From Streptacidiphilus sp. P02-A3a (lineage in GTDB: Bacteria; Actinomycetota; Actinomycetes; Streptomycetales; Streptomycetaceae): 64,000 bases of DNA. Where the stretch lies: positions 1,807,922 to 1,871,921 of the forward strand of contig NZ_CP048289.1 of the NCBI RefSeq assembly GCF_014084105.1, in the 5' to 3' direction. The position numbers were made by a program, and so were the translations under genes. Below, in pieces: positions 8,289 to 29,972 of the stretch. Numbering within the stretch: position 1 is the stretch's first letter; the number at the start of each line of letters is the position of its first letter. The notes below the pieces were generated by a model. That model did not search any database and was not told the DNA's origin. It saw only the letters and a program-made list of their open reading frames with translations.

Positions 8289-8399
8289 GAGCTACCCCCT
8301 CGGTGCGGCCCGGCTGTCGGGCCCCGGTAAGTAGACTGCCGCGACCGCGCGCCGCAATCAGTAGTGCCCGACCCCGAATCGGGGGTGGTGCCAGGTGCA

Positions 8400-8409
8400 C
8401 CCCTAGGGG
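8400..8409. promoter_or_regulatory. Palindrome in the divergent region before the sensor kinase
   Basis: CCCCTAGGGG is a perfect 10-bp palindrome, flanked by TGCA and GCA so that the dyad nearly extends. It lies 50 bp before the kinase start, with CCCCGAATCGGGG just upstream. This is a plausible operator, perhaps for the response regulator encoded downstream; no direct evidence. Confidence 0.35.
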
Positions 8410-8458
8410 GCATCAGGGTCCATGGTGCTTGCCGATCATGGGACTTAGGCTCTGCCGC

Positions 8459-11783: not shown

Positions 11784-11976
11784 GCGCCGATCCTCGCACC
11801 CGCCACTGACAGCCCGCCTCCGGATATCACCGCCGCCGGACGCCCGCGGAGCGGGTCGGGGCAGAGTGTCACCACTGCGATGCGTGACGGTATATCGCAG
11901 GCTGCGAGCGTTCTGGCCCTCTGATTTCTCTTCTCCGCCCCTGCTCCCATACGTGCATCCGAGGTACCCTGGCCGC

Positions 11977-12051
11977 ATGCCCATGCTCGTTTCGCGCCGT
12001 CACGTGGACCTCCACCGGGTGACGAACATGTCCTGTCGCCTTCCCGTCTGA
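11977..12051 (+). CDS. Putative leader peptide (RRHVDL type), probably leaderless mRNA
   Basis: A 24-residue ORF reads MPMLVSRRHVDLHRVTNMSC then RLPV. It matches the short actinobacterial leader peptides with an RRHVDLxRV core and a Cys near the end, usually found before sulfur-metabolism or oxygenase genes. TACCCT at 11965-11970 is a good -10 hexamer only 6 bases before the ATG, so the mRNA probably starts at or near the ATG. The oxygenase starts 50 bp after its stop. Cysteine-responsive control is an inference from the Cys codon and known relatives. Confidence 0.65.
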   Translation: MPMLVSRRHVDLHRVTNMSCRLPV

Positions 12052-12101
12052 CCCCCGAACCCTCTCCCCATCGGCGTCACACACCCTCACCAGGACGGGC
12101 C

Positions 12102-13088: not shown

Positions 13089-13096
13089 CGCGAGAA

Positions 13097-13134
13097 GGCG
13101 AGCCCCCCGCAGCCGAGGCTGCGGGGGGCTCGCC
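13097..13134. terminator. Bidirectional terminator
   Basis: GGCGAGCCCCCCGCAGCC (13097-13114) pairs perfectly with 13117-13134 (18 bp, minimal loop). It separates the convergent oxygenase and MFS exporter genes. Confidence 0.82.
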
Positions 13135-13169
13135 GTGTTCGCGCCGACCGTTGACCGCCCGGGGCCGGG

Positions 13170-14660
13170 CTACCCGACGCGGCTGGGGAGCCGGGTGGAC
13201 AGCGCCATCACGCCGAGGGTGAGCAGGAGCTGGAGCGCCAGCACCAGGGCGAGCGCGTCGTGCATCCCGTGGGTCGGGGCGAGGGTGAGGAACAGGGTGC
13301 CCAGGGTGGCCACCCCGAGGGCGAGGCTGGACTGCTGGGTGGTGGCCAGGATGCCGCCGCCCACGCCCGCGCGCTCGGTCGGGATCTCCGACAGCACCAG
13401 CCGGATCAGCGGCGGCATCACCAGGCCCTGCCCGGTGCCGGCGATCGCCATGCCGGGCAGCAGCACCAGCGGGCTGAGGCCGGACCAGTCGCCGTAGACG
13501 GTCAGCACGAGCACCAGCAGGCCCACGGCCTGGATCACCGAGCCGGCCCGGATCACCTTGCTGCCGAAGCGGTTCAGCAGTCGCGGCCCGGCCAGTGAGG
13601 CGATGAAGAAGCCCACCGCCATCGGCACCATGGCCAGTCCGGAGGCGATCGGCCCCTCGTTCAGGCCCTGCTGCAGGGCGACGGCCATCACCAGCATGAA
13701 CCCGCCGAACCCGGCGAAGAAGGGGACGGCCATGGTCAGCCCGGTGCGCAGGCCGTGGATGCGCAGCAGCGAGAACGGGACCAGCGGTACCGCTCCGGCC
13801 CGCTCGGCCCGGCGCTCGACCCGGACGAACGCCGCGACCAGCAGCGGGAACGCGGCGAGCAGGGTCCAGGTCCACCACGGCCAGCCGACCGCGCGGCCCT
13901 CCATCAGCGGCACCAGCAGCGCCAGCAGCGCGGCGGCCAGCAGCGCGGTACCGGGCAGGTCCACCCGGGCCGGGTTGGCCGAGCGGGTCTCCGGCACGGA
14001 GCGCAGCGCCAGCAGCGCGGCGGCGACCGAGACCGGCACGTTGACCAGGAAGATCAGCCGCCATCCGGTGCCGAACAGGTTCGCCGAGAGCAGCACCCCG
14101 CCCAGTACCTGGCCGATGACGACGGAGATCCCGCCGACCGCGCCGTAGATGCCCATGGCCCGCGCCTTGCGCTCGCCCTGGGTCGCGGACTGGATGGTGG
14201 CCAGCGCCTGCGGCAGCATCAGCGCCGCCGCCGCGCCCTGCGCGACCCGGGCGCCGACCAGCGCCAACGCGGTCGGGGCCAGGCCGCAGGCCAGCGAGGT
14301 GAGGCCGAAGGCGATGGATCCGGCGATGAACAGCCGACGGCGGCCGAAGAGGTCGCCGAGCCGTCCGCCGAGCACCAGCAGCACGGCGTACGCGATGCCG
14401 TAGCCGGCGACGAAGAGTTCCAGCGTCGCCGGACCGGCGGTGAGGTCGCGGTCGATGGTCGGCAGCGCGACGTTGACGATGAAGAAGTCCAGCATCGGCA
14501 GGAAGGCGCCGAGCAGGACGGTGATCAGGCCCAGGGTGCTGAGCCTGGGCGGGTTCGAGGAGGAGTCCGGGCCGCCGTGCCCGTTTGAGTCCGAGGGGGT
14601 GGTCCCGGAGAGCTTGCGGACGCGCGGCAGGACACTGGCTGCTGAGGATGGGCGAGTCAT
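13170..14660 (-). CDS. MFS drug exporter, EmrB/QacA (DHA2, 14-TM) type
   Basis: 496 residues with about 14 hydrophobic segments. DHA2 markers: LDFFIVNVALPTIDRDL in TM1, GGRLGDLFGRRRLFIAG (motif A) and GVGGGILATTQQSSLALG in the second half. It likely exports toxic or signalling small molecules using the proton gradient. The ATG at 14660 is chosen; a GTG at 14666 is in frame two codons earlier. It is divergent from the LysR regulator at 14914, which probably controls it. A perfect palindrome CTGGTACCAG lies 34 bp upstream of the start. Confidence 0.9.
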   Translation of the reverse strand: MTRPSSAASVLPRVRKLSGTTPSDSNGHGGPDSSSNPPRLSTLGLITVLLGAFLPMLDFFIVNVALPTIDRDLTAGPATLELFVAGYGIAYAVLLVLGGRLGDLFGRRRLFIAGSIAFGLTSLACGLAPTALALVGARVAQGAAAALMLPQALATIQSATQGERKARAMGIYGAVGGISVVIGQVLGGVLLSANLFGTGWRLIFLVNVPVSVAAALLALRSVPETRSANPARVDLPGTALLAAALLALLVPLMEGRAVGWPWWTWTLLAAFPLLVAAFVRVERRAERAGAVPLVPFSLLRIHGLRTGLTMAVPFFAGFGGFMLVMAVALQQGLNEGPIASGLAMVPMAVGFFIASLAGPRLLNRFGSKVIRAGSVIQAVGLLVLVLTVYGDWSGLSPLVLLPGMAIAGTGQGLVMPPLIRLVLSEIPTERAGVGGGILATTQQSSLALGVATLGTLFLTLAPTHGMHDALALVLALQLLLTLGVMALSTRLPSRVG

Positions 14661-14693
14661 GGTCACGGGTGCTACGATCCGCCACCACTTAGC

Positions 14694-14703
14694 CTGGTAC
14701 CAG
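14694..14703. promoter_or_regulatory. Palindrome CTGGTACCAG before the exporter gene
   Basis: Perfect 10-bp palindrome in the MFS/LysR divergent region. The same decamer recurs at 24245-24254 in front of the XRE regulator gene. An operator role is inferred from position only. Confidence 0.35.
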
Positions 14704-14913
14704 TGTCTGCTTATCCTGGTGTTGGAAGTACCCGGATACCCCGATCCGACCCGGCGCCGACAGGTATCACGCTAGCCGCGCAGGGGGTCTGGGGGGAAGG
14801 TGGGGGAATTATCCTCGCATTATCCAGGTTGTGTGTTTGGACCAGGGTTCAACGGAGCAGGTACCGGCGTGCCGAATCGGGTCGCGGGGCAGTGCACGCC
14901 TAGGTGGGGGACG

Positions 14914-15795
14914 ATGGAGATTCGCTGGTTGGAGACGTTCGCCGTGGCCGCTCGGGAGGGCAGCATGAGCGCCGCCGCCGAGCGGCTCGGGTATGCGCGC
15001 TCCACCGTGACCGGCCATGTGCAGAACCTGGAGAAGTCGCTGGGGGCCCAGCTGTTCGACCGCCGTTCCCTCGGCCACCCGCTCACTATGTCCGGCGTCG
15101 CCCTGCTGGAGCACGCCGAGAAGATCCTCGACAGTATGGAGCGGGCCCGCGCCGCCGTGGTCGAGGTGGAGGAGGGGCGCGGTGTGCCGCTCCAGCTCGG
15201 CGCCACCGAGTCGGTCTGCGCGTACCGGTTGCCGGTCTTCCTGCGGATGATGAGCCGCTTCATCCCCGGCCTGAAGATCGAGGTGGAGGCGGCCGCTGGG
15301 GTGCGCCTGTCCGAACTGGTGCTGTCCGGCCGCCCGAGCGTGGTCCTGGTCAACGGCACCCGGGACCGCAGCGGCGGGACCGGTCCGGCCGAGTCCGGGA
15401 CGGTGCTGCGGCGGGAGCTGTGGGACGAGGACGTGCTGATGGTCGGCACCGCGGACGCGGCGGCCAACCCGAAGCGGATCCTGCTGACCGGCCGTGACTG
15501 CGTGTACCGGCAGCTCACCGACGCCGACTTCCTGGGGCGGCTGCCGGACGTCGAGCCGATGCAGGTGGGCAATCTGGAGGGGGTGAAGGCGGCGGTGGTC
15601 GCGGGGCTGGGGATAGGGCTGCTGCCGCTGGTGGCGGTCAAGCCGTGGCTGGCCAGCGGGCACCTGGTGGCGCTGCCGCTGCGGACCGAACGCAAGGTGG
15701 TCACCGAGGTGGTGTGGAACCAGCAGACCTGCCCGGCCGGTGTGGCCGAGCACCTGCGGCGGCTGCGCTCGATCTCGGTCCGGATCGACAGCTGA
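14914..15795 (+). CDS. LysR-family transcriptional regulator
   Basis: 293 residues. N-terminal winged HTH: MEIRWLETFAVAAREGSMSA, AAERLGYARSTVTGHVQNLE, LGAQLFDRR. The effector domain follows (LPVFLRMMSRFIPGLKIEVE; late block VEPMQVGNLEGVKAAVVAGL, GIGLLPLVAV). ATG at 14914 follows AGGTGGGGG. Divergent from an EmrB/QacA exporter, the classical local-target arrangement. The final codons CGG ATC GAC AGC TGA are the first copy of a 21-bp tandem repeat that continues past the stop. Confidence 0.9.
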   Translation: MEIRWLETFAVAAREGSMSAAAERLGYARSTVTGHVQNLEKSLGAQLFDRRSLGHPLTMSGVALLEHAEKILDSMERARAAVVEVEEGRGVPLQLGATESVCAYRLPVFLRMMSRFIPGLKIEVEAAAGVRLSELVLSGRPSVVLVNGTRDRSGGTGPAESGTVLRRELWDEDVLMVGTADAAANPKRILLTGRDCVYRQLTDADFLGRLPDVEPMQVGNLEGVKAAVVAGLGIGLLPLVAVKPWLASGHLVALPLRTERKVVTEVVWNQQTCPAGVAEHLRRLRSISVRIDS

Positions 15796-15864
15796 CCCGT
15801 TCGGATCGACAACCGACCCGTCCGGATCGACAGCCGACCCGTCCGGATCGACAACCGACCGGTC
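15781..15864. repeat. 21-bp tandem repeat, four copies
   Basis: Units start at 15781, 15802, 15823 and 15844, each beginning CGGATCGACA, with a partial fifth. Copies differ at only one to three positions. The first unit includes the LysR stop codon. Because 21 is a multiple of 3, the array stays open in one frame on each strand. It fills the gap between the convergent LysR and CGNR genes. Confidence 0.9.
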
Positions 15865-15886
15865 CGGACCGCGACCGAGCGCGCCG

Positions 15887-16471
15887 TCACGGCAGATCCG
15901 CCTTCCGGGCCCGGTGCGCCGCGACGTGGTGCCGGTTGCCGCAGGCCTGGGCCGAGCACCAGCGGCGGCGGCGCCCCCGGGAGGCGTCCAGGTAGACGAG
16001 GTCGCAGGACTGCCCCTCGCATTCGCGCAGCAGCTCCCGCTGGGGTGAGCTGAGCAGCTGGATGGCGTCCTCGGCGACCGCGGCCAGCAGTTCCTCCAGC
16101 CGCGGCGGGGCGGACAGCCGACGGTACCGGGTGCCGTCCGCGGCCTGGACCAGCCGGGACGTCGGCGGACCGGCCTGGGCGACGTGGTTGAGCCGGTCGA
16201 TGTCGCGGGTGGCGGCCGGCTCCCCGGCGAGTTCGCTGTGGACGACCCGCTTCAGGCAGCCGCGCAGCCCGAGGAACTCGGTCAGCGCGCCCGAGCCGAG
16301 CTCCAGCGGCTCGTCGCCGGGGACGACACCGGCCCGGCGCAGCCAGACGACCAGCCGCTCCGGGCTGTCCAGCCGTTCCACCGGGTCCGTCGAGAGGCTG
16401 CCGCCGATGGTGGCCAGCAGGTCCAGGCAGACCCGACCGGCGTCGAACCGCAGATCGGTGCTTATGGGCAT
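15887..16471 (-). CDS. CGNR zinc-finger (ABATE domain) regulator
   Basis: 194 residues. N-terminal ABATE-type domain (PISTDLRFDAGRVCLDLLAT) and C-terminal CGNR zinc finger: CDLVYLDASRGRRRRWCSAQ followed by ACGNRHHVAAHR. These are putative stress- or metabolite-responsive transcription factors. ATG at 16471 follows GGAAGGGG. A strong hairpin (16531-16585) separates it from the MFS gene upstream, so it is probably transcribed alone. It could regulate the cupin-MFS unit; this is inferred from proximity. Confidence 0.88.
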   Translation of the reverse strand: MPISTDLRFDAGRVCLDLLATIGGSLSTDPVERLDSPERLVVWLRRAGVVPGDEPLELGSGALTEFLGLRGCLKRVVHSELAGEPAATRDIDRLNHVAQAGPPTSRLVQAADGTRYRRLSAPPRLEELLAAVAEDAIQLLSSPQRELLRECEGQSCDLVYLDASRGRRRRWCSAQACGNRHHVAAHRARKADLP

Positions 16472-16530
16472 GGGATTCCCCTTCCAGGAGGCGGGACACC
16501 GCTGACAACCCGATGGTCGCACTCCGTCGG

Positions 16531-16585
16531 CGTCCGGTGGCGGGCCTGTCGGAGATGTCCTCTCCCACGGGCCCGCCACCGGACG
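16531..16585 (-). terminator. Terminator after the cupin-MFS unit
   Basis: CGTCCGGTGGCGGGCC (16531-16546) is perfectly complementary to 16570-16585, a 16-bp stem with a 23-base loop, 34 bp after the MFS stop codon. Confidence 0.75.
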
Positions 16586-16618
16586 GGGTCGGGCTGTTCG
16601 GCCGGCTGCCGAAGCGGG

Positions 16619-17986
16619 TCAGGAGACCTTCGGCTCACGCGGCATGAGCAGGGCGGAGGCCACCGCCGGGACCGCGCCGATCAGCAGCATCACCATCGGC
16701 CAGGAGGAGGCGGAGAGCACCAGCGGGATCAGCAGCGGGGTGACGAAGGCGCCGCCGAAGACCAGGGTGTTCTCCAGGCCGAGCGCGGTGCCGGAACGCT
16801 CGGCGCCCGCCATGGTGGCGATCTCGGCGTAGTGCACGCCGTGCCAGCCGCAGGCCAGGATGCCGGAGACGGTGAGCAGGGTGGCGATCACCCAGGCCGG
16901 AGCCGACTCGAACAGTGCGATCCCGCCGAACCCGGCCGCGATCGCCCAGCTGTAGACGGTGACCAGGGTCCGGCGGTAGCGCCCGCCGTGCCGGTCGGTC
17001 CAACGTCCGCCCCACACCCGGGAGACGGCGCTCAGCACCTGGACGATCACCAGCAGCACGGCGATGGTGGCCAGCGGGATGTGCTTGACGGTGTGCAGGA
17101 AGACCGAGCCGAAGGTCAGCACGGTGAACTGGGGCAGGTCGAGCAGGAAGGCGGTGATGCCGATGCGCCAGATGTCCCACCGCTTGAGCGGGTTGGGCAG
17201 GGTGAACTCCGGCTGCCCGGCGCCGTCCTTGCCCTTCCCCTTGCCCTTGGTCTTCGCCAGCGGGGGCTCGTCCAGCCAGAGGACCACCGCGATGGTCGCC
17301 AGCAGGGTGAAGCCGGTGAGGAATCCGAAGACCCAGCGGAAGCCGCCGGACATGGCGAGCGCCGGGATCACCGCGGCGCCGATCGCGCCGCCCGCCGGAA
17401 CCGCGGCGACCCGCAGACTGATCGCGAATCCCCGCTTGTGCAACGGGAACCAGCCCATCACCGCGCGGCCGGAGGCCCCGTTGACGCAGCCGCCCAGCGC
17501 GCCGACCAGGAACAGCACGGCGGCCAGCACCTGGTAGGTGGGCAGGGTGCCGTGGCTGGGGGTGAGGAACACGGTGATCGCAGCCAGCGTGATCATCATC
17601 CCGGTCATCCCGGTGATGAGCACCTTCCGCTCGCCTATCCGGTCGGACAGGATGCCCCAGAACACGTCGGTGATGAAGACGCCGCAGGTCACGGCGGCCA
17701 GGATGATGCCGAGTTGGGAGGCGGTGAGGTGGTAGGCGCTCTGCAGTTCCGAACCGGCGGTGGGGATGCCCTGGAACACGGAGCTGAAGGCCGCCTGGGA
17801 GCCGATCCCGATACCGAGGATGCCCCACATGTACTTCGGGGAGTGCGTCTTGCCGGACTGCCCGACGAGCGGACCGGTGGTGGCGGCAGCGGTGGTGGCG
17901 GCGGCCGTGGCGGCGGGCGGCGTGACCTCCGGTGCGGCCGCCGGAGCGGGCACCGGGCGGGGCGGGTCGGTGACTTGTTCGTACAT
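16619..17986 (-). CDS. MFS transporter (12-TM), linked to the glutamate-mutase cluster
   Basis: 455 residues. A 45-residue Pro/Ala/Thr-rich cytosolic N terminus precedes 12 predicted helices. TM1-2 include GIGIGSQAAFSSVFQGIP; motif A is GILSDRIGERKVLITG. The central loop is basic (KTKGKGKGKDG). It resembles metabolite:H+ symporter-type MFS proteins more than multidrug exporters; direction of transport is unknown. Start ATG 17986 with GGAG upstream. It lies 56 bp downstream of the cupin gene, in the same unit, and ends before a hairpin. Confidence 0.86.
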   Translation of the reverse strand: MYEQVTDPPRPVPAPAAAPEVTPPAATAAATTAAATTGPLVGQSGKTHSPKYMWGILGIGIGSQAAFSSVFQGIPTAGSELQSAYHLTASQLGIILAAVTCGVFITDVFWGILSDRIGERKVLITGMTGMMITLAAITVFLTPSHGTLPTYQVLAAVLFLVGALGGCVNGASGRAVMGWFPLHKRGFAISLRVAAVPAGGAIGAAVIPALAMSGGFRWVFGFLTGFTLLATIAVVLWLDEPPLAKTKGKGKGKDGAGQPEFTLPNPLKRWDIWRIGITAFLLDLPQFTVLTFGSVFLHTVKHIPLATIAVLLVIVQVLSAVSRVWGGRWTDRHGGRYRRTLVTVYSWAIAAGFGGIALFESAPAWVIATLLTVSGILACGWHGVHYAEIATMAGAERSGTALGLENTLVFGGAFVTPLLIPLVLSASSWPMVMLLIGAVPAVASALLMPREPKVS

Positions 17987-18042
17987 GGTCTTCTCCAAGG
18001 AGGTGGGGCCGGTGCGCGGGGCGCAGACGGGGCGGGGTGCGG

Positions 18043-18498
18043 TCAGCCGCCGTTCGGCGCCGCCGTCAGGGCGAGCCCGGCGTCGGGGGATTCGCCGGGG
18101 CGCAGCGCGAGGGTGCGCTTCTCGCGGATCACGAGCATCTTGCAGCCCTCCGGGCTGCTCACCTGGTGCACGCTGTTCGGACGCTCGACGATGAGCGTGC
18201 CCGGGCGGTAGTGGTCGCCGTTGTCGTTGACGAGCTCTCCCTCCAGCACCACCATCACCTCGAAGCCGAGGTGGCGGTGCAGGTCGCCGTGGGCTCCCGG
18301 GCGGAAGTAGGCGAGGTACGCCTCCGCGCCGTCGGCGCCGGTCTCCTGGGCGGTGTAGAGCCAGTGCACGTCCACGGCCTCGCGGCCGGGCTGGGTGTAG
18401 GGGTGCCAGGTGATCCGGTCGCCGGTGAGGCCGTCGCCGAAGACGTCGGTGATGATCTCGATCGCGCGCTGCTGGGGGATGTAGGCGAGCTGGGACAT
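18043..18498 (-). CDS. Cupin-domain protein
   Basis: 151 residues with a single cupin barrel: PGAHGDLHRHLGFEVMVVLE gives metal ligands (HxH and E), and the second motif is RPGTLIVERPNSVHQVSS. Cupins of this size act as dioxygenases, isomerases or ligand sensors (ChrR-like). In this cluster it may act on a pathway intermediate. The ATG at 18498 is preceded by CAGGAGAACC, a strong ribosome site. It heads the cupin-MFS unit, behind two inverted repeats at 18514-18538 and 18552-18578. Confidence 0.85.
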   Translation of the reverse strand: MSQLAYIPQQRAIEIITDVFGDGLTGDRITWHPYTQPGREAVDVHWLYTAQETGADGAEAYLAYFRPGAHGDLHRHLGFEVMVVLEGELVNDNGDHYRPGTLIVERPNSVHQVSSPEGCKMLVIREKRTLALRPGESPDAGLALTAAPNGG

Positions 18499-18513
18499 GG
18501 TTCTCCTGTCTGA

Positions 18514-18538
18514 CTGTCACGGGTCGGAGCCGTGACAG
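18514..18538 (-). promoter_or_regulatory. Inverted repeat CTGTCACGG-N7-CCGTGACAG in the cupin leader
   Basis: Perfect 9-bp arms separated by 7 bases, 16 bp before the cupin start. It can be an operator or a leader RNA hairpin close to the ribosome site. Confidence 0.5.
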
Positions 18539-18551
18539 CGAAGTGAGCGGA

Positions 18552-18578
18552 GATGTAATGCGTTAGAACCATTACATC
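18552..18578 (-). promoter_or_regulatory. AT-rich operator-like dyad GATGTAATG-N9-CATTACATC
   Basis: Perfect 9-bp arms (18552-18560 and 18570-18578) around CGTTAGAAC, 54-80 bp upstream of the cupin start. An AT-rich dyad of this length is rare in this sequence and looks like a binding site for a dimeric regulator over the promoter of the cupin-MFS unit. Confidence 0.6.
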
Positions 18579-18590
18579 GATGGTGGGTCA

Positions 18591-18626
18591 TCGCCCGTCG
18601 GCGGCGCAAGCTCCGACGACGGGCGA
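18591..18626 (-). terminator. Terminator after the mutase-ligase operon
   Basis: TCGCCCGTCG (18591-18600) pairs with CGACGGGCGA (18617-18626), 10 bp with a 16-base loop, 60 bp after the ligase stop on the minus strand. It separates the operon from the cupin promoter. Confidence 0.6.
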
Positions 18627-18686
18627 CAACCGGGTTCGGGATTCGTGAACTGGCCTTGCGGGAGCGGACTTCAGCGGGATCAGGTG

Positions 18687-20303
18687 TCAGCCGGTGAGCG
18701 AGGCGCGGCGGACCTTGCCGGAGACCGTGCGCGGCAGCCGCTCGGTGAACTCCAGGGTGTGCACCCGGAGCGCCGAGCTGACCCGGGCGTCCACGTACCG
18801 CAGCAGGTCGGCGGCGGTCACCGTGGCGCCGTGGACGACCTCGACCACGGCGTGGGCGGCCTTGCCCAGGGTCGGGTGCGCGGTGGGCACCACCGCGGCG
18901 TCCCGCACCTCGGCGTGGGAGCGCAGCACCGCCTCCAGCTCGTACGGGGAGACCCGGTGCCCGCCCGACTTGAAGACGTCGTCCGAGCGGCCCAGCACCC
19001 GGATGTAGCCGTCCGCGCGGATCTCGCCGATGTCGCCGGTGCGGTAACGGCCGCCGCTGATCGCCCGGTTGGTGCGCTCCGGGTCGCCGTCGTAGCCGGC
19101 CATCATGCCGAGCGCCGGGCTGTTCAGGTCCACGCAGATGACCGAGTCCTCCACGACCATGTCCCAGCCGGGCAGCGGGAGGCCGAGCCACCCCGGCTCG
19201 CTCCGCATCCCCGGCGTGGTGCCGATCAGCGCCGTGGTCTCGGTCTGTCCGTAGCCCTCGCGGAGGGTGACCCCCCAGGCGGCGCCGACCGCCTCGGCGA
19301 CCCGCGCCGGGAGCGGCTCCCCGACGCTGGCGGCCTCGCGCAGCCGGGGTGCGGCGCTGCCCAGGTGCTCGACCAGCTGCGTCCAGTAGGACGGCGGCGC
19401 GCAGAGGCTGGTCACCCGCTGCTCGGCCAGTAGCCGCGGCAGCAGCGCCGGGGCGGCGCAGTCCTCCTCCGCCACGACCAGGGTGGCCTCCGCCGAGAAG
19501 GGCACGAAGAAGCTGGACCAGGAGTGCTTCGCCCAGCCGGGCGCGGAGACGTTCAGGTGCCGGTCGCCGGGCATCAGCCCGTTGAAGTACATCGAGGACA
19601 GGTGGCCGATCGGGTACGACACGTGGGTGTGCAGCACGAGCTTGGGTGCCGAGGTGGTGCCCGAGGTGAAGTAGGCGAAGGCCGGATCGGCGGCCCCGGT
19701 GGGGGAGTCGGGCAGGAACGGGCCCGGCGCCTGGTACGACGCCCGGTGGTCGAGCCAGCCGGGGACCGCCGGGCCGACCGCGATCCGGTTGGTCAGCGGG
19801 AGGTCGTCGAACAGGGCGGTGAGGCCGCTGCGGGTGACCAGGTGCCGCACCCGGCCCCGGGTGATCCGGTCGGCGGCCTCGGCCCGGGTCAGCGAGGTGT
19901 AGGTGGGGATGACGACGGCGCCGAGCTTGAGACAGGCCAGGATCGTCTCCCAGAGCTCGGACTGCTGGTCGAGCACCACCATCACCCGGTCGCCGCGGCT
20001 GACCCCCAGGCCGGTCAGCCAGTTGGCCAACTGGTCGGAGCGGGCCGACAGTTCGAGGTAGGAGATGGAGCGGACCGAGCCGTTGGCGCGGACCATCTCC
20101 AGCGCCGGCCGGTGGTTGTCCTCGGCGATCACGTCGAACCACTCCAGCGCCCAGTTGAACGTCTCCGGCCGGGGCCAGCTGAACGCCTTCCGGGCCGCGT
20201 CCAGGTCGGTGCGCAGTTCGAGCAGCAGGTCCCGGCCCGCGGCGAAGGCCAGGTGGGCCTCGGTGTGGCGGAACTTGCCCCAGTCGTCGGGTCGTTCGGT
20301 CAT
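18687..20303 (-). CDS. AMP-forming acyl-CoA synthetase/ligase
   Basis: 538 residues, ANL superfamily. Core motifs: phosphate loop AYFTSGTTSAPKLVLHTH, EGYGQTETTALIG (A5), YRTGDIGEI (A7), RSDDVFKSGGHRVSPYELEA (A8) and the catalytic Lys in TVSGKVRRASL (A10). It activates a carboxylic acid as acyl-AMP and usually transfers it to CoA. The overall layout is closest to medium-chain or benzoate-type CoA ligases. No carrier protein is encoded nearby. Its ATG overlaps the stop of the mutase-flavoenzyme gene (ATGA), so it belongs to the same pathway. The substrate is unknown; a methylaspartate-derived acid is an inference. Confidence 0.9.
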   Translation of the reverse strand: MTERPDDWGKFRHTEAHLAFAAGRDLLLELRTDLDAARKAFSWPRPETFNWALEWFDVIAEDNHRPALEMVRANGSVRSISYLELSARSDQLANWLTGLGVSRGDRVMVVLDQQSELWETILACLKLGAVVIPTYTSLTRAEAADRITRGRVRHLVTRSGLTALFDDLPLTNRIAVGPAVPGWLDHRASYQAPGPFLPDSPTGAADPAFAYFTSGTTSAPKLVLHTHVSYPIGHLSSMYFNGLMPGDRHLNVSAPGWAKHSWSSFFVPFSAEATLVVAEEDCAAPALLPRLLAEQRVTSLCAPPSYWTQLVEHLGSAAPRLREAASVGEPLPARVAEAVGAAWGVTLREGYGQTETTALIGTTPGMRSEPGWLGLPLPGWDMVVEDSVICVDLNSPALGMMAGYDGDPERTNRAISGGRYRTGDIGEIRADGYIRVLGRSDDVFKSGGHRVSPYELEAVLRSHAEVRDAAVVPTAHPTLGKAAHAVVEVVHGATVTAADLLRYVDARVSSALRVHTLEFTERLPRTVSGKVRRASLTG

Positions 20304-23300
20304 CGGTGGCCTCCGTCGAGTGCGGGTTGCGGCAGCTGGTCCGCGGTCTGGGTGAGGGCGTCCGCCGCGACGGCGTCCGCGTCCGAGGTGAACGCCGTCC
20401 ACGGGCCCGGGCGGGTGGAGCCCAGCTGCATGAACCAGCGCTGGCCCTCGGTGGGGATGCCCAGGACGTACAGCCCGGCCACGGGAGCGCCGGACAGGTC
20501 GGTCGGTCGGAACGGCGCGGCGGTGACCGCCACGCCGCCGGTGTCGAGGGGCTCGTCGCCCGCGGCGTTGGTCCAGCTGGTCAGCAGCCCGGCGCGGACC
20601 AGCTGGCCGGTCAGCGGTGCCGGGTCGCGGACCAGGTCGACGCCGGGGATCCGCGCGTCGATCAGGGTCGGGCACACCTGCGGGCCACCCTCGACCTGCG
20701 GCGAGGACGCGGTGTACGCCCCGGCGTCGGCGTCGCCGGCGAAGCGGACCGAGGGGCCGACGATCTCCAGCACCCCGGCGTTCATCAGCGCCAGCGTCTG
20801 CGCCAGCCGCTCCACCGGCGGCCCGGCGGCGAGGAAGGAGCCGAGCGGGGCGAACCAGCCGAGGAAGTCGCGCTGGTGGGAGCGGGCGGTCAGGCCGCCG
20901 TAGTCCACCGCGAGCCGCAGGGTGCCGCGGACGTCGCGGATCACGTCCAGGGCGGCCTTCAGTGGACCGTGGTAGTTGCCCAGCCGGGCCTGCGCGATGT
21001 CCGCCTCCAGCAGTTCGGCCAGCGCCGCGGCGAAGTCCTTGGGACCGGCGAAGCGCAGCCCGGCGAACGGACGGCTCAGCCGGTCGACGTCCAGCGGCGC
21101 GAGCCCGTCCACGCCCAGCCGCTCGGCCTCCTGCCGGGCGACCCGCTCGGCCGCCGCGACACCCGCGGCGACGACCGCCGCGGCGACCCGGTCGAGGTAG
21201 CCGCCCTCGGCCTCGGCGCCCGACCGGGCCCGGACCGCGGTGGCGTGGTAGACCAGTTGCAGTTCGGCGGCCAGCCACGGCCACACCTCGGCGCGGAAGT
21301 CCAGCGGCCCGTGCCGACGCAGCTCGGTGATCCGCTCGGGGGTGAACAGCCGTGCCTGGTAGCGCCAGTCGGGCTGCTTCTGGTTGAGCCCGCGCGCCGG
21401 CATCGGCACCCCGGACCGGGACCCCGCCACCAGCTTCGGCTCCCGCCCGGACGGTAAGTAGCGCAGGCCGCCGCGTCCGTCCTCCTGGAACCGGCCGCCG
21501 CGACCGGCGGTGAGCGCGGCGACGACGTCGTAGAAGGAGAGCCCCATGCCCAGCACCGCGACCCGGCTCCCCGGCGCGATGCTCGCCAGCGGCATGTCGG
21601 CGGCGCTGTCGCCGCGGATGTAGCGGGCGCCGAGGTGCGCGGCGGCGAAGGCCGACAGTTGGCCCTGCTCGCCGGAGAGTTCGGTGACCGCGTGTCCGGT
21701 CGCCAGCACCACCCGGTCCGCGTGCAGCACCTGGCCGTCCGCGAGCGGCAGCCGCCAGTCCTGCTCGTCCCTTTCCACGGCGACGACCTCGCCGGAGACC
21801 CGGCGCAGGGTCGCGGTGGCCGGGAGCGAGGACTCCACCGCGTCCAGGTAGAAGCTCAGGTAGCGCCCGTAGACCCCGCGCGGCGCGTAGGACCCGGGAC
21901 CGGGGAAGTCGGGGTCGGTGGCCGCCCACCACTCGCCCAGCGAGGGTCCGGCCCCGGCCCGGGTGGGGCCCGCGTCCGGCGGCCCCGAGAACATGGTCAC
22001 CTCCCCGCAGGCCGTGTTCATCAGGAACGACTGGTCCTGGTTGGTGCGCCAGATGCGTCCCGCGCCCACCTGGACCTTGTCGATCACGCTGATCTCCACC
22101 CGCCGCTCGGGCCTGGCCTTGGCCAGCCGGGCCGCGATCCGTTCGGCCACGGCGAGGCCGCGCGGGCCCGAGCCGACGATGGCGATCCGGTGCGGGGTGG
22201 ACCCGCCGGTGATCGAGGTGAGCCGGTCGTGCGACTCGGCGGTGTAGCGCAGCATGCCCAGCAGCCGGGCGGAGGTGACCGCCGTGGTGCCGGTGCCGGT
22301 GCTGGTGCCGGTGCCGGTGTGCGACGCGGTCAGCGGCATCGCCCCGGTCTTCGCCCAGACCAGCCTGCCGTCGTCGCCGATCGCGCCCTGGGCGGCGCCG
22401 GCGTTGTCGCGGTGCAGGCAGAACGGCACGTCCAGGACCCCGTCGGCGAACGCCTTGCGCAGCGCCAGGCCGAGGTCCGGTGAACCCGCCAGCACCGCTT
22501 TGATCAGCGTGGACGCCTCGGTGTAGACGGTCTCGTAGTCGACCTGGCGGGCCCAGGGCAGGGTGCAGTCGTCGGTCAGGGCGTGCATGCCCGCGGTGGC
22601 CGCCCGCTCCAGAGCGGCGACGTTCTCGGCGATGGTGGGGATCCGCTGGGCCTCCACGGCGGTCTTGACGATCAGCCGGGAGGCCCCGCCGCGCACCGCG
22701 ATCTGCGCCGAGGTCTCCAGCAGCAGCTTCGCGCCCTGCTCGGTCCCCGGGTAGACGCCCATGTAGCTGTAGAGCACCAGGTGCCGGGCCACCCCGGCGG
22801 GCAGGTACTCCTCGGCCAGGTGGTGCAGCGCGGCCAGCGCCTCGATGTCCTGCACCGCGTGCGTCTGCTGGGCGTACGAGAGCGACACCGAGGTCAGGCC
22901 GCAGCGGGCGAAGAACATCGCCTCCAGCACGCTGATCGCGACCAGCAGCGAGGGCGGACACATCTGCCCGAGCATGCAGCCGCCGAACGTCTCCAGGTGC
23001 GCCCGCAGCCCGCGGGCGGCGGCGGTCTCGGCGAACTGCCGCGCGGCGTCCGCCCAGGCGGGCACGGACTCGCTCAACGGCAGCCGGGAGTAGGGCAGGC
23101 AGTACGAGACCGGACCGCCCTCGGACGCCGACAGGCCGGCGGCGACCATTGCCTCGAAGATATGCGCGGGACGGGCCGATCCGTGGCGTACCTGGACCGG
23201 TATTCGGTGGTCGGTGGCCGCGATTACCCGGGCGGTCGTTTCCAGGTCGTGGTTCGCGATCGGAAAACCGTTCAGCGGCTTTCCGGCGGCCAGCGCCGCG

Positions 23301-23503
23301 GCGGCGCCCGCCAGGTCCTCCACTCGGGTGTACGAATCAATGGTGATGGTACCGGCGGTCCGGGCGCGGACCGCCGCGACGGCGCGCAGACCCGCCGCCA
23401 TTTCCTCGGGGTCGGACATTCCCATGCGCGGCTGCACGACCAGTCCGCCGCCGGCGGCCGCCCTTTCCACGTAGGTCTGGAAATCGACCTGCCTTTCCGT
23501 CAC
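20300..23503 (-). CDS. Fusion: glutamate (methylaspartate) mutase large subunit + FAD/NAD(P)-binding oxidoreductase
   Basis: 1067 residues, two full-length enzyme domains. Residues about 1-425 are a B12-dependent mutase E chain: QPRMGM, TITIDSYTR, PLNGFP, VQVRHGSARP, SASEGGPVSYCLPYS, SLSYAQ and MPLTA are E-chain blocks. A Thr/Gly linker, coded by GTGCCG-type repeats, lies around residues 395-410. From about residue 440 comes a flavoprotein: HRIAIVGSGPRGLAVAERIA (FAD loop), GAGRIWRTNQ, LMNTACGEVTMF, YGRYLSFYL, VVLATGH and a second Rossmann loop VAVLGMGLSFYDVV. This half resembles the PF13454-type flavoproteins that, as I recall, include aspartate N-oxygenases of the CreE/FzmM type. The mutase half would make 3-methylaspartate from L-glutamate. 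GTG start overlaps the S-subunit stop (GTGA). Domain calls are strong; the flavin reaction is inferred. Confidence 0.87.
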   Translation of the reverse strand: MTERQVDFQTYVERAAAGGGLVVQPRMGMSDPEEMAAGLRAVAAVRARTAGTITIDSYTRVEDLAGAAAALAAGKPLNGFPIANHDLETTARVIAATDHRIPVQVRHGSARPAHIFEAMVAAGLSASEGGPVSYCLPYSRLPLSESVPAWADAARQFAETAAARGLRAHLETFGGCMLGQMCPPSLLVAISVLEAMFFARCGLTSVSLSYAQQTHAVQDIEALAALHHLAEEYLPAGVARHLVLYSYMGVYPGTEQGAKLLLETSAQIAVRGGASRLIVKTAVEAQRIPTIAENVAALERAATAGMHALTDDCTLPWARQVDYETVYTEASTLIKAVLAGSPDLGLALRKAFADGVLDVPFCLHRDNAGAAQGAIGDDGRLVWAKTGAMPLTASHTGTGTSTGTGTTAVTSARLLGMLRYTAESHDRLTSITGGSTPHRIAIVGSGPRGLAVAERIAARLAKARPERRVEISVIDKVQVGAGRIWRTNQDQSFLMNTACGEVTMFSGPPDAGPTRAGAGPSLGEWWAATDPDFPGPGSYAPRGVYGRYLSFYLDAVESSLPATATLRRVSGEVVAVERDEQDWRLPLADGQVLHADRVVLATGHAVTELSGEQGQLSAFAAAHLGARYIRGDSAADMPLASIAPGSRVAVLGMGLSFYDVVAALTAGRGGRFQEDGRGGLRYLPSGREPKLVAGSRSGVPMPARGLNQKQPDWRYQARLFTPERITELRRHGPLDFRAEVWPWLAAELQLVYHATAVRARSGAEAEGGYLDRVAAAVVAAGVAAAERVARQEAERLGVDGLAPLDVDRLSRPFAGLRFAGPKDFAAALAELLEADIAQARLGNYHGPLKAALDVIRDVRGTLRLAVDYGGLTARSHQRDFLGWFAPLGSFLAAGPPVERLAQTLALMNAGVLEIVGPSVRFAGDADAGAYTASSPQVEGGPQVCPTLIDARIPGVDLVRDPAPLTGQLVRAGLLTSWTNAAGDEPLDTGGVAVTAAPFRPTDLSGAPVAGLYVLGIPTEGQRWFMQLGSTRPGPWTAFTSDADAVAADALTQTADQLPQPALDGGHR
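22286..22320. repeat. GTGCCG hexanucleotide repeat encoding a Thr/Gly linker
   Basis: About six near-perfect GTGCCG units (one GTGCTG) read on the minus strand as Gly-Thr repeats (TGTGTSTGTGTT). They sit near the junction between the mutase and flavoprotein halves of the fusion gene. Confidence 0.75.
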
Positions 23504-23985
23504 GCCGCAACCCCTTCACTGGAGGTGATGTCGATGGAGGAGAACCGGGCCAGCACCCGGCCGAATTCGGCCGGATCCGTGCCCTCGTTGAAGACCGCGT
23601 TGAAGCCGGCGGCGAGCAGTTCCTCGGCCAGGTCCGTGTTCGCCGTCCCCTGGATGTCCAGCTTTCCGCCGATCAAAGCGGGTACCGACGCCACCACCGG
23701 GTCCCCGTCGGCGCGCAGGGCGCGGATCAGCCGGGCGCCGTCGATGTGCCCGTGCCCGTTGACCGAGGAGATGACCACGGAACTCGGTGCGTACCCGCGG
23801 ACCGATTCGATGAGCACCTGGTCCGGTACACAGGGACCCAGGTTCACCACCTCGTAGCCCATTTCTTCGAGCAGCAGCTGGAGAAACACCAGATTCCACG
23901 TGTGGGAATCCGAGGATACGGTGGAGAGGATAACGATCTGTTTGCACAGTGTTCCGGACATCTGACCCCTGTTCTGTTCCGGCAC
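23500..23985 (-). CDS. Glutamate (methylaspartate) mutase small subunit, cobalamin-binding
   Basis: 161 residues, a flavodoxin-like B12-binding fold. The DxH cobalt-ligating motif is present in STVSSDSHTWNLVFLQLLLE, but the usual DxHxxG glycine is Asn. Other B12 blocks are VISSVNGHGHIDG (SxL-like) and the GG loop in PALIGGKLDIQG. It pairs with the E chain encoded downstream to form the active mutase. A few residues (MPEQNRGQMSGTLCK) precede the core; an alternative start at the second Met is possible. First gene of the operon, translationally coupled to the fusion gene by a GTGA overlap, and divergent from the XRE regulator. Confidence 0.88.
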   Translation of the reverse strand: MPEQNRGQMSGTLCKQIVILSTVSSDSHTWNLVFLQLLLEEMGYEVVNLGPCVPDQVLIESVRGYAPSSVVISSVNGHGHIDGARLIRALRADGDPVVASVPALIGGKLDIQGTANTDLAEELLAAGFNAVFNEGTDPAEFGRVLARFSSIDITSSEGVAA

Positions 23986-24297
23986 CGGGTGGGGTGAACA
24001 GGTTCAGGTTGGTCCGTGGACGGGCGCCGGGACAGGATGGTTCGCGAATCGTGAACTCAAGTTCGAGAAGTCCGGCGAAAGAGTGTCCGGGAAAGGGGTG
24101 CAGTCGCGGCGTCGTCAGCGAGTGCACCAGTAGGTGCAATCCCCAGCATGGCCTACATAAGTGGTCTGCGTCACTATTTCGGCGGACCGGATGGAACTCG
24201 CGGCGCCGGAAACGGCCGCAGGGGGGTACCAGCGGCTGCTGATCCTGGTACCAGCGGTAACTGGCACGGGGATGCGGGTTCAGGCATCCTGACAGGT
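23986..24297. promoter_or_regulatory. Divergent control region between the mutase operon and the XRE regulator
   Basis: 312 bp rich in dyads and repeats. CCTGTTC (23968-23974) pairs with GAACAGG (23996-24002). GAACT-CA-AGTTC is at 24053-24064. TGCACC-AGTA-GGTGCA is at 24123-24138. GGTACCAGCGG occurs as a direct repeat at 24225 and 24247 (22 bp apart, about two helical turns), the second overlapping palindrome CTGGTACCAG. No cobalamin riboswitch core was recognised. Likely binding sites for the adjacent XRE regulator and other factors; which is which is unknown. Confidence 0.55.
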
Positions 24298-25221
24298 ATG
24301 AGCACCGCAGCCACCCCGCTCGCACTGGTCCACTCGGCGGTCGACCCGGACGAGGTCCGCCGCCGCGAACTCGCCGCCTTCCTGCGCAGTCGCCGGGAGC
24401 GGATCTCGCCCGAGCAGGTCGGGCTGCCCGCCGTCGGCCGCCGCCGCACCCCGGGGCTGCGCCGCGAGGAGGTGGCGCAGCTCGCCGCGGTCGGGGTCAC
24501 CTGGTACACCTGGCTGGAGCAGTCGCGCGACATCCAGGTCTCCGCGCAGGTGCTGGACGCCATCGCGCGCGCCCTGCTGCTCGGGCCCAACGAGCGCAGC
24601 CACCTGTTCTCGCTCGCCGAGACCCAGGACCCGGCGCCGATCAGCATGTGCCCCACGATCACCCCGGCGCTGGAGGCGATCCTGGCCCAGCTGGAGCCGC
24701 TGCCCGCGGTCGCCGCCAACAGCCGCTGCGACGTGCTCGCCTACAACCGGACCTACCGGCACCTGATCTCCGACCTGGACGCGGTCCCGAGCGAGGACCG
24801 CAACTTCCTCTGGCTGGCCTTCACCGAACCCCGCTGGAAGAAGGTGCTGCTCGACTACGAGGCGGCCACCTCCTCCATGGTCGCCAAGTTCCGCGGCGCG
24901 ATGGCCGACCATGTCGCCGAGCCCGGCTGGAAGGCCCTGGTCAAGCGGCTGCGGCTGGCCTCGCCGGAGTTCGAGGAGAAGTGGCAGCGGCACGAGGTGG
25001 GACTGACCTCGCACGGCGAGAAGCGCTTCCTGAACCCGCACGTGGGGCTGCTGCACTTCGAGTTCACCAACCTGTGGCTGGGCCCCAAGATCAGCACCCG
25101 GCTGGTCACCTACACCCCCGCCGACGACGAGACCCGCGAGCGGATCGAACGGCTGCACGCCATCGCGGTCGAGATCGAGCGGCGCGAGCAGGCCGGGCCG
25201 CCGCACCCGGTCCGCGCCTGA
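24298..25221 (+). CDS. XRE-family regulator with MmyB-like ligand-binding domain
   Basis: 307 residues. N-terminal HTH_31/XRE: RRRELAAFLRSRRERISPEQ, RRTPGLRREEVAQLAAVGVT, WYTWLEQSRDIQVSAQVLDA. The MmyB-like C-terminal domain follows (AVAANSRCDVLAYNRTYRHL, RWKKVLLDYEAATSSMVAKF, and FLNPHVGLLHFEF), proposed to bind fatty acids or similar ligands. This family commonly sits divergent from a single oxidoreductase operon it controls, which matches its position opposite the mutase-flavoenzyme operon. ATG 24298; the longer frame to 24148 runs through the operator region. Confidence 0.9.
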   Translation: MSTAATPLALVHSAVDPDEVRRRELAAFLRSRRERISPEQVGLPAVGRRRTPGLRREEVAQLAAVGVTWYTWLEQSRDIQVSAQVLDAIARALLLGPNERSHLFSLAETQDPAPISMCPTITPALEAILAQLEPLPAVAANSRCDVLAYNRTYRHLISDLDAVPSEDRNFLWLAFTEPRWKKVLLDYEAATSSMVAKFRGAMADHVAEPGWKALVKRLRLASPEFEEKWQRHEVGLTSHGEKRFLNPHVGLLHFEFTNLWLGPKISTRLVTYTPADDETRERIERLHAIAVEIERREQAGPPHPVRA

Positions 25222-25298
25222 GCCCGGACCGGCCCGGGCTCACCGGGTGGGACAATGAGGGGTCCGCCACCACCGCACCGGGAACGGGAACCAGCACC

Positions 25299-26465
25299 AT
25301 GACCACCACCGCCGCAGCCCCCGCCACCCTCGCCGCCCCGCTGCGCCTCGGGGAGCGGATCGAGGTGTGGCCGCCGGTCGTGCTGGCGCCGATGGCGGGG
25401 ATCACCAACGCCCCCTTCCGCAGCCTGTGCCGCGAGCAGAGCGGCGGCAAGGGCCTGTTCGTCTCCGAGATGATCACCACCCGGGCCCTGGTCGAGCGGG
25501 ACCGCAAGACCATGCGGCTGATCCGCTTCGACGCCTCCGAGCAGCCCCGGTCGATCCAGCTCTACGGGGTGGACCCGGACATCGTCGGCCGCGCCGCCCG
25601 CATGATCGCGGAGGAGGGCCTGGCCGACCACATCGACCTGAACTTCGGCTGCCCGGTGCCCAAGGTGACCCGCCGCGGCGGCGGCTCGGCGCTGCCGTAC
25701 AAGCGGAACCTGCTCCGGCGGATCCTGCGCGAGGCGGTGGCCGGGGCGGGCGGGCTGCCGGTCACCATGAAGATGCGCAAGGGCATCGACGACGACCACA
25801 TGACCTACCTGGACGCCGGCCGGATCGGCGCGGAGGAGGGCGTCGCCGCCATCGCCCTGCACGGCCGCACCGCGATCCAGCACTACAGCGGCACCGCCGA
25901 CTGGTCCGCCATCGCCCGGCTGCGCGAGGCCGTGCCGGCGCACGTCCCGGTGCTGGGCAACGGCGACATCTGGTCGGCGGACGACGCGGTCCGGATGGTC
26001 CGCGAGACCGGCTGTGACGGAGTGGTGGTCGGCCGGGGCTGCCTGGGCCGCCCGTGGCTGTTCCAGGAGCTGGTCTCGGTCTTCGAGGGCGACGCCGAGT
26101 ACGCGCGCCCCTCCTTCCCCTATGTCGCCCGGGTGATGCTGCGCCACGCGCAGCTGCTCGGTGAGTGGATCGGCGACGAGAAGCACGGCGTGGTCGACTT
26201 CCGCAAGCACGTGGCCTGGTACACCAAGGGCTTCTCGGTCGGCTCCGAGCTGCGCCGGGCCCTCGGCCTGGCCTCCGGGCTGGACGAGCTGGCCGAGCTG
26301 CTGGCGGCGGTGGACCAGGAGCAGTCCTGGCCGCTGAGCGCCGACGGCCCGCGCGGGCGGACCTCGGGCGCGAACCGGGTGGTGCTGCCCGAGGGCTGGC
26401 TGGACGACCCGTACGACTGCGCCGTCCCCGACGCCGACGCCGAGCTCGACACCTCCGGCGGCTGA
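25299..26465 (+). CDS. dusB: tRNA-dihydrouridine synthase DusB-like
   Basis: 388 residues. FMN-dependent reduction of uridine to dihydrouridine in tRNA D-loops. Signature blocks: VLAPMAGITNAPFRSLC, IQLYGVDPDIVG, IDLNFGCPVPKVTRRGGGSA with the catalytic Cys, ALHGRTAIQHYSGTADW and GCDGVVVGRGCLGRPW. The C-terminal helical tRNA-binding domain is present. ATG at 25299; upstream in-frame Mets belong to the overlapping reading of the XRE gene. Weak ribosome site (GGGAACGGGAACC). Ends 12 bp before a strong terminator. Confidence 0.94.
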   Translation: MTTTAAAPATLAAPLRLGERIEVWPPVVLAPMAGITNAPFRSLCREQSGGKGLFVSEMITTRALVERDRKTMRLIRFDASEQPRSIQLYGVDPDIVGRAARMIAEEGLADHIDLNFGCPVPKVTRRGGGSALPYKRNLLRRILREAVAGAGGLPVTMKMRKGIDDDHMTYLDAGRIGAEEGVAAIALHGRTAIQHYSGTADWSAIARLREAVPAHVPVLGNGDIWSADDAVRMVRETGCDGVVVGRGCLGRPWLFQELVSVFEGDAEYARPSFPYVARVMLRHAQLLGEWIGDEKHGVVDFRKHVAWYTKGFSVGSELRRALGLASGLDELAELLAAVDQEQSWPLSADGPRGRTSGANRVVLPEGWLDDPYDCAVPDADAELDTSGG

Positions 26466-26476
26466 GACCTCCGCCG

Positions 26477-26510
26477 CCCCGGGCCGGGCGGATCGGAGCC
26501 CGGCCCGGGG
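26477..26510 (+). terminator. Terminator after dusB
   Basis: CCCCGGGCCGGGC (26477-26489) pairs perfectly with GCCCGGCCCGGGG (26498-26510), loop GGATCGGA. Confidence 0.8.
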
Positions 26511-26813
26511 AAGCGCGGGGGACGCGCGGGCGGACGGAAGATGGACGCCGTGGGTCCTCCCGGCTGAGGATCCGTACGCCGGACGGCCGAGTCTGCCCGA
26601 ATCCGGACCTCCGAAAGCACGTGACTCTGACCACACCGGCGGCTACTTTGCGTCAGTCGGACGTAAAACGCCCGGTGGCCCGGAGGGTGGATCAGCTTCC
26701 AAACGTGCACGCGTCATCCGGCGGCGGATCCGTGCAGGTCATCAAGGCAAGGCAACCCGTTCGCCATGGAACGGATGCGGATTGTCATGATCCTATGATC
26801 TTGTGGTTTCCAT

Positions 26814-26832
26814 GCGTTCACTTAGTGAACGC
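26814..26832. promoter_or_regulatory. 19-bp palindrome upstream of ppdK
   Basis: GCGTTCACTTAGTGAACGC is a perfect odd palindrome (9-bp half sites around one base), flanked by CCAT and TGG. It lies 177-195 bp upstream of the ppdK start in a 540-bp intergenic region that is unusually AT-rich for this DNA. The direct repeat ATGATC-CT-ATGATC lies about 20 bp further upstream. This is a good candidate for a dimeric repressor site controlling ppdK. Confidence 0.55.
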
Positions 26833-27008
26833 TGGCTAGCGTCAACCCGACGATTTTACTTTCACAGGCGAACGCCGATCCGCAGCTTTCGATCTATCGG
26901 GTTACCCACGGGTACAGCGCATCGACAGCCGATTGGGTGAGCTGAAGCGCCTTCGATCTGGGTATGTTCTCCGGCGTCAGGGCAACCGTGCGGCAGGAGA
27001 CCGAAACC

Positions 27009-29717: not shown

Positions 29718-29879
29718 CACACCCTCACCGGGGCCCCTCCCTCAGGGCGAACCTCACCCGGTGTCAGCGCGGGACCCCCTCCGCGCCTCGTCCCCGACCA
29801 GGACCGGGAGGCGCGGCGGGGGAGCTGCCCGCACCAGGTCGCGGCGGCGCTCGGCGCAGAGTAGCCGCCGTGTACCAAA

Positions 29880-29930
29880 CCGGGGCGGTGGAACGGACAA
29901 CGGCGTCCGGTCCACCGCCCCGGCCCCTTT
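29880..29930 (+). terminator. Terminator after ppdK
   Basis: CCGGGGCGGTGGA (29880-29892) pairs with TCCACCGCCCCGG (29911-29923), with a nested CGGAC/GTCCG hairpin inside. CCCCTTTTC follows, a real T-run. Confidence 0.75.
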
Positions 29931-29972
29931 TCTCCACGGCTTTCTCCACAGCGCTTCAGGCCGGCGGGTTCA

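Follow-up and report, generated by a model that had tools for sequence, protein, structure and literature searches.

The stretch of DNA analysed here (the window, 64,000 nucleotides) covers positions 1807922 to 1871921 of the single-contig, 9.33-Mb genome of Streptacidiphilus sp. P02-A3a and contains an operon of three genes: one for a MutS-like subunit of glutamate mutase (methylaspartate mutase), one in which the second mutase chain, MutE, is fused to a flavoprotein, and one for an AMP-forming ligase. Genes for a cupin and for a transporter of the major facilitator superfamily (MFS) lie downstream. This arrangement had been described in an initial annotation made from the sequence alone; all of the genes were located, and both 4-base overlaps within the operon were read directly (GTGA at 23503-23500 between the MutS and fusion genes, and ATGA at 20303-20300 between the fusion and ligase genes, the ligase start ATG overlapping the fusion stop). 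The principal features, from upstream to downstream, are as follows.

23500..23985, minus strand: MutS-like cobalamin-binding subunit of glutamate mutase (PF02310, 33.7 bits; PDB glutamate mutase S chain, 3.9e-07)
22220..23503, minus strand: MutE half (residues 1-428) of the fusion protein (PF06368, 295 bits; 6h9e_B, 1.7e-39)
20300..22219, minus strand: flavin N-oxygenase half (residues 429-1067) of the fusion protein (PF13454, 127 bits; 8cp2_A, 326 bits)
18687..20303, minus strand: AMP-forming ligase (PF00501/PF13193; nearest solved relatives 8biq and 3etc)
18043..18498, minus strand: cupin metalloprotein, probably an enzyme acting with the ligase (PF12973/PF07883, Cupin_7/Cupin_2; conserved metal site)
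16619..17944 (or to 17986), minus strand: MFS transporter, probable exporter (PF07690, MFS_1, 159 bits; counterpart in 9 of 21 related loci)

The fusion gene (20300-23503) is a single frame of 1067 amino acids, in which a Pfam scan found both of the domains that the initial annotation had proposed to look for, PF06368 (Met_asp_mut_E) at residues 7-393 and PF13454 (NAD_binding_9) at residues 441-604. Eight Streptomyces contigs carry the fusion at 59-73% identity (best segment); they account for eight of nine named loci and come from S. mexicanus, S. murinus, S. longwoodensis, S. morookaense and four other strains; among these eight, the L060 contig ends before the MutE part and the L061 gene is frame-broken, and a further locus, L062, matches only in the MutE half. 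Single open frames were found in genomes G003, G104, G056, G053 and G291. Counted by sample, such frames occur in at least five genomes, including the host's own, among 199 relatives searched (with two pieces in G152) and in at least six of a sample of 249 family genomes (with two pieces in G222); the samples overlap, and the counts are lower bounds because three candidates were scored per genome. The fusions of G231 (L117) and G253 (L127) were recognised only from the stretches examined, and that of G265 (L115) is frame-broken. Because it recurs in this way in Streptomyces contigs and in single frames of other genomes, the fusion, judged by its sequence distribution, is no accident of assembly. 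In the L043/L014, L061, L113 and L115 assemblies the gene is in pieces, through either sequencing error or decay.

The MutE half is identical to the Clostridium E chain at 117 of 370 aligned residues and keeps R66, R100, R149, E171, Y177, Y181, K326 and E330 of what we take to be the active site, in which K322 is replaced by Arg. Alignment of MutS to the PDB glutamate mutase S chain shows that the Asp and His of the presumed cobalamin motif, DxHxxG, are kept and that the Gly is replaced by Asn. The window encodes both S and E chains, as do Clostridium cochlearium and the macrolactam clusters that use 3-methylaspartate, with all but one of the active-site residues; however, unlike those mutases, its E chain bears a C-terminal flavoenzyme.

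In a PDB search (177,635 distinct sequences, up to E = 1), the fusion protein matched only three entries, the FAD-binding protein 8cp2/8cp5 and two glutamate mutase E chains. Alone, the flavoprotein half aligned with 8cp2_A over 614 residues (8-621; 326 bits) at 37-38% identity. Aspartate N-hydroxylases start nitrite-releasing routes to N-N bonds, and the initial annotation had likened the flavoprotein half to those known as CreE and FzmM. That comparison is upheld, since the sole solved sequence relative is 8cp2/8cp5 and no dehydrogenase or other family was matched. As described in the relevant passages of PMC10404684, 8cp2/8cp5 is the L-aspartate N-hydroxylase of Streptomyces sp. V2, an enzyme that converts aspartate into nitrosuccinate by three oxidations; nitrosuccinate spontaneously decarboxylates to 3-nitropropionate, and the characterised members of the family oxidise as far as nitro or oxime. 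The same passages name R13, R276, R416, R577 and N413 as substrate residues, and N413 touches aspartate, its mutation to Glu abolishing hydroxylation.

The similarity of the window protein to the V2 enzyme spans the FAD, NADPH and substrate domains in full, with the corresponding residues in register. It keeps R13, W51, N62, R266, R276, R409, R412, R416 and R577, which are flavin, sulfate or substrate residues according to those passages of PMC10404684; however, N413 is replaced by Gly and V571 by Phe. On this sequence evidence, we do not file the flavoprotein half as an aspartate N-hydroxylase but regard it as one of their relatives in which the substrate chamber has changed. It shares with the V2 enzyme, FzmM and CreE their family, cofactor residues and substrate arginines but differs from them in belonging to a separate clade, in the two replacements, in its fusion to MutE and in having no lyase partner that we could find.

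The replacement at position 413 recurs among the fusion-type proteins. All 19 fusion-type proteins surveyed, which include the L060 protein (cut before its MutE part) and the frame-broken L014/L043, L061, L113 and L115, lack Asn there (Gly in 12, Ala in 4, Gln in 2 and Ser in 1). In contrast, Asn is present in all 31 of a set of different Asp-type relatives (56-62% identity to V2; best matches to a single query, L068, rather than a random sample), which carry V (26) or A (5) at position 571. The L054 oxygenase shows two further changes, W51G and N62T, that could reflect sequence error. In a tree of 53 oxygenases, 11 of them fused, the Asp-type enzymes fall on one side (support, 100/99). The other side (93/89) comprises a basal L051, the A-type fusions, a clade linked to LeuCD genes and the G-type fusions, to which the window protein belongs. 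Since the LeuCD-linked clade is sister to the G-type fusions (98/91), the tree suggests either a single fusion event with later loss in the LeuCD clade or two fusion origins.

A second locus of the same genome, L065 (6178001-6198000), carries at 5613-13986 an operon for MutS, MutE, the alpha and beta subunits of a 2-oxoacid:acceptor oxidoreductase, an N-oxygenase and an AMP ligase. Its oxygenase has Asp at position 413 and falls inside the Asp side of the tree on a long branch, where its placement is less sure. This locus is apparently a second, independent pairing of glutamate mutase with the same oxygenase family, and it is our strongest reason for naming 3-methylaspartate as the substrate. 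Upstream of its mutase operon lie desaturase-like and polyketide synthase-like genes. At L051 and L120, the MutS, MutE, oxygenase and ligase genes are adjacent but unfused. A further row of genes in the same genome, at 7088-12785 of L066 (6734001-6754000), encodes KamA-like radical SAM, metallo-beta-lactamase-fold, N-oxygenase (Glu at position 413), cupin and MFS-like proteins; the KamA-like gene scores 125 bits against NCBIfam TIGR00238, below its cut-off of 199, and the row is possibly another pairing of a mutase with an N-oxygenase.

For neighbourhood comparison, we used 21 loci of 7-23 kb, chosen for carrying the fusion, or a same-side oxygenase beside a ligase; L048, the other LeuCD-type loci and L065 fall outside this set. 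The ligase is present in all 21 (partly owing to this selection), MutS and MutE are present in 19, and the cupin is present in 19 (not found in L112 and L119), with polyketide synthase genes in 5 (KS-AT-DH-ACP by Pfam on L039 and L056). Mutase, oxygenase and ligase occur together in the window and in 19 further loci. The two loci without mutase genes are L060, which is cut by its contig end, and L119, whose genome (G253) has a complete A-type fusion cluster elsewhere (L127). At L119 itself, the oxygenase (Gly at position 413) and ligase genes adjoin polyketide synthase and TetR genes, with no mutase in 20 kb.

What these loci lack is the usual, although not universal, partner of the Asp-type enzymes. 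With a nitrosuccinate lyase as the query (728 bits against NCBIfam NF052556; cut-off, 650), a homologue was found near 26 of the 31 Asp-type relatives, in stretches with mostly 1.5-kb and in a few cases 20-kb flanks; the other five, L063, L064, L067, L076 and L078, have none in the stretch examined. No homologue was found within the window, as the initial annotation had noted, or in any of the 21 related loci. The host genome has two lyase-like genes outside the window (592 and 549 bits, both below the family cut-off). Among the 18 genomes that pair mutase with oxygenase, 9 have no lyase match above 52 bits (G104, G056, G053, G152, G024, G222, G265, G231 and G253), and in the other 9, the host's own included, a match scoring 456-812 bits lies outside the stretches examined, on a different contig from the cluster in the L056 and L059 genomes. 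A lyase supplied from elsewhere in the genome therefore cannot be the general solution. The initial annotation had also remarked on a missing decarboxylase, a point that may be moot because nitrosuccinate loses CO2 unaided, according to the passages of PMC10404684 cited above.

The ligase has the adenylation domains of the acyl-CoA synthetases (AMP-binding PF00501 and a C-terminal PF13193) and the Asp of motif III. Its nearest solved relatives are the 4-hydroxybutyrate-CoA ligase 8biq and MacsMa (3etc), which, as reported in PMC10455477, prefers 2-methylbutyrate, depends critically on Trp259 to bind its substrate and has a CoA pocket that includes Y460, R490, Y525 and Y527. All 13 cluster ligases retain Trp259, and all 13 lack each of the four CoA pocket residues, which sets these ligases apart from MacsMa; however, the C-terminal alignment is approximate, and 8biq, itself a CoA ligase, has V in place of Y527. 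Because 2-methyl-3-nitropropionate is shaped like 2-methylbutyrate, the ligase may adenylate a branched acid for an acceptor other than CoA.

The metal ligands of the cupin (H, H, E, H) do not vary across 18 aligned cupins, of which three come from LeuCD-type loci. Judged by length, the ligase and cupin form one protein in L054, L055, L056, L057 and L060 (checked by Pfam for L054 only), and L058 has two cupins. A structure model of the cupin (pLDDT, 79.6) matches 408 PDB chains at E <= 0.001, among them TM1459, the dimethylsulfoniopropionate (DMSP) lyase DddK and acetylacetone dioxygenases; such matches are generic among small metal cupins and do not discriminate between functions.

From the gene content, protein families, residues and conservation, all of which are observed, we infer the reactions of what is reasonably likely to be a compact biosynthetic unit, leading from glutamate through 3-methylaspartate to its N-oxygenated, probably nitro, form, which would then be adenylated and acted on by the cupin. 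MutS and the MutE half would, very probably, isomerise L-glutamate to 3-methylaspartate with coenzyme B12, given their family and catalytic residues. The fused flavin N-oxygenase would then probably oxidise the amino group of 3-methylaspartate with NADPH and O2. That 3-methylaspartate is handed to N-oxidation, as the initial annotation had proposed, is the best interpretation of the fusion and is strengthened by the independent pairing at L065. Most likely, although at no better than about even odds, the oxidation would be threefold and produce 3-methyl-2-nitrosuccinate, from which loss of CO2 can leave 2-methyl-3-nitropropionate. The oxygenase may instead stop at the hydroxylamine or oxime. 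The later steps are more doubtful: the ligase might adenylate the carboxylate of the branched, N-oxidised acid and pass it to an acceptor, probably not CoA; the cupin might carry out the next step on the same intermediate, such as nitrite elimination, rearrangement or cyclisation; and the MFS protein might export the product.

Several observations weigh against this interpretation. Both mutase chains score below their NCBIfam equivalog cut-offs (MutE, 182 versus 390.1 bits for TIGR01503; MutS, 56 versus 110 bits for NF002612), the Gly of the DxHxxG cobalamin motif is replaced by Asn in MutS, and the structure model of the oxygenase was of middling confidence (mean pLDDT, 68.7) and was not used. 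The oxygenases of L051 and L120 retain N413; because both are linked to an unfused mutase, residue 413 alone does not mark the substrate, and the simple rule that Asn413 means aspartate is weakened. Nor is the oxygenase subfamily tied to 3-methylaspartate alone, since there is a LeuCD-linked sister clade and a MutE homologue was not found in 4 of 11 genomes searched (G083, G086, G062 and G189). L048 has MutS, MutE, oxygenase, cupin and LeuCD genes, and a ligase homologue was not found in its 20-kb stretch, so the association of mutase with ligase is not invariable. Finally, we know of no assay of any relative of the fusion.

One alternative is that the flavoprotein takes 3-methylaspartate no further than N-hydroxylation and the ligase activates an amino acid as its adenylate; the metal cupin would then form an N-N bond by rearranging the O-acyl hydroxylamine that results. 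An N-hydroxylase, an adenylating enzyme and a metal cupin stand side by side here just as those functions do in the MetRS-cupin hydrazine synthetases, in the account given in sections of PMC11705231. The adjacency of the ligase and cupin genes, their apparent union in five relatives and the absence of the CoA pocket residues of 3etc from all 13 cluster ligases agree with such a route. Furthermore, in G291 (L112/L128) the fusion operon is followed on the same strand by a second N-oxygenase, a GNAT protein, another PF13454 flavoprotein, a MetRS-like protein and a Cupin_2 protein, as in hydrazine synthetase clusters, and a homologue of the window cupin was not found there; however, these neighbours may belong to a separate second pathway, and they represent one locus of 21. 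The window ligase is a relative of acyl-CoA synthetases (PF00501) rather than MetRS-like, PF09334 did not appear in the Pfam scan, and the cupin is of the Cupin_7 type. Since the characterised members of the oxygenase family also proceed to nitro or oxime, as the cited passages of PMC10404684 have it, we consider a hydrazine route unlikely.

The cluster might instead supply nitrite in the manner of CreE/CreD, with the cupin taking the place of the lyase by expelling HNO2 from an activated 2-methyl-3-nitropropionyl group to leave a methacrylyl group. DddK, one of the many matches of the cupin model, performs a comparable elimination, and the ligase and usually the cupin stand here where 26 of 31 Asp-type loci have a lyase homologue. 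However, the fold matches, 408 chains in all, do not discriminate, and no nitrite-using partner was seen in the window cluster, where none was specifically searched for; nitrite supply seems distinctly improbable. The oxygenase half could also act on aspartate itself, so that the fusion would couple two enzymes of one product that contains separate methylaspartate and nitro building blocks. The protein retains the arginines of the aspartate site, and L051 and L120 keep N413, but the residue is replaced in 19 of 19 fusion-type proteins, and in the V2 enzyme it touches the substrate and cannot be exchanged for Glu without abolishing hydroxylation (the same passages of PMC10404684). This possibility is, in our judgement, very unlikely.

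Passage of 3-methylaspartate to N-oxidation therefore remains the preferred interpretation, and the initial annotation is supported on the genes and, as far as sequence can tell, on the chemistry. Each enzyme family is individually known. It is plausible that the cluster enables this soil bacterium to make a nitrogen-oxidised building block of a new kind. More tentatively, a B12 radical mutase and an N-oxygenase joined as one machine may form a chiral C4/C5 unit with a beta-methyl group and an oxygenated nitrogen; this unit would be adenylated to an acceptor other than CoA, and the metal cupin would turn it into a product that possibly contains an N-N bond or a heterocycle. In that case the wider subfamily of oxygenases would comprise beta-alkyl-aspartate N-oxygenases fed by glutamate mutase or by isopropylmalate-type enzymes and an aminotransferase. 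The pairing of a changed-chamber oxygenase with an adenylating enzyme and nearly always a cupin, with no lyase, suggests an unexplored branch whose products may retain the nitrogen on their carbon skeleton. It leads to a testable prediction, that 3-methylaspartate is preferred over aspartate with position 413 as a possible specificity switch, and it offers a starting point for mining genomes for natural products with nitro or hydrazine groups.

In the open PubMed Central literature, which does not cover subscription journals, we found no report of the fusion, of the altered oxygenase subfamily, of a lyase-free ligase-cupin ending or of a characterised cluster that shares this gene set, and none that joined nitrosuccinate with glutamate mutase or with methylaspartate. 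On nitropeptin, the literature listed was, by its title, about isolating actinomycetes. A search there for 3-methylaspartate with nitro biosynthesis gave no N-oxygenase among the matches listed, judged by title or the start of the abstract, and the passages on nitropropionate breakdown in PMC9552603 contain no parallel to the ligase or the cupin.

Three regulatory genes flank the cluster.

15887..16579, minus strand: ABATE/CGNR regulator, probably in the unit (PF07336/PF11706; 55-60% identical counterparts in L039, L058, L059 and L113)
about 14914..15795, plus strand: LysR-type regulator, probably in the unit (named from sequence rather than by family search; start approximate)
24148..25221: XRE-MmyB gene

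Counterparts of the LysR-type gene (42-65% identical) occur in L039, L054, L056, L057, L058, L059, L061 and L113. Because both the CGNR-type and the LysR-type genes recur beside L039, L058, L059 and L113, they probably belong to the unit. The initial annotation had placed an XRE regulator facing the operon; the gene is present, but it probably lies outside the unit because it has no counterpart in any of the 21 related loci, and we rejected it as a member. No known RNA family, such as a B12 riboswitch, reached its gathering threshold at window positions 10000-30000.

The LeuCD-type loci (L044, L045, L046, L047, L048, L114, L116 and L118) carry sister oxygenases, with A, S, W, G or T at position 413, together with varying sets of LeuC, LeuD, LeuA-like synthase, aminotransferase, isochorismatase-fold, TauD and cupin genes. 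They are possibly a route to other beta-alkyl-aspartates, with a possible likeness to a nitropeptin-like amino acid. The A-type fusion clusters (L040, L041, L042, L115, L117 and L127) share a flank that encodes rhodanese, HPP membrane, haloperoxidase-like PAP2 and carboxymuconolactone decarboxylase-like proteins, named by Pfam on L040 only and judged in L115, L117 and L127 by similar N-termini.

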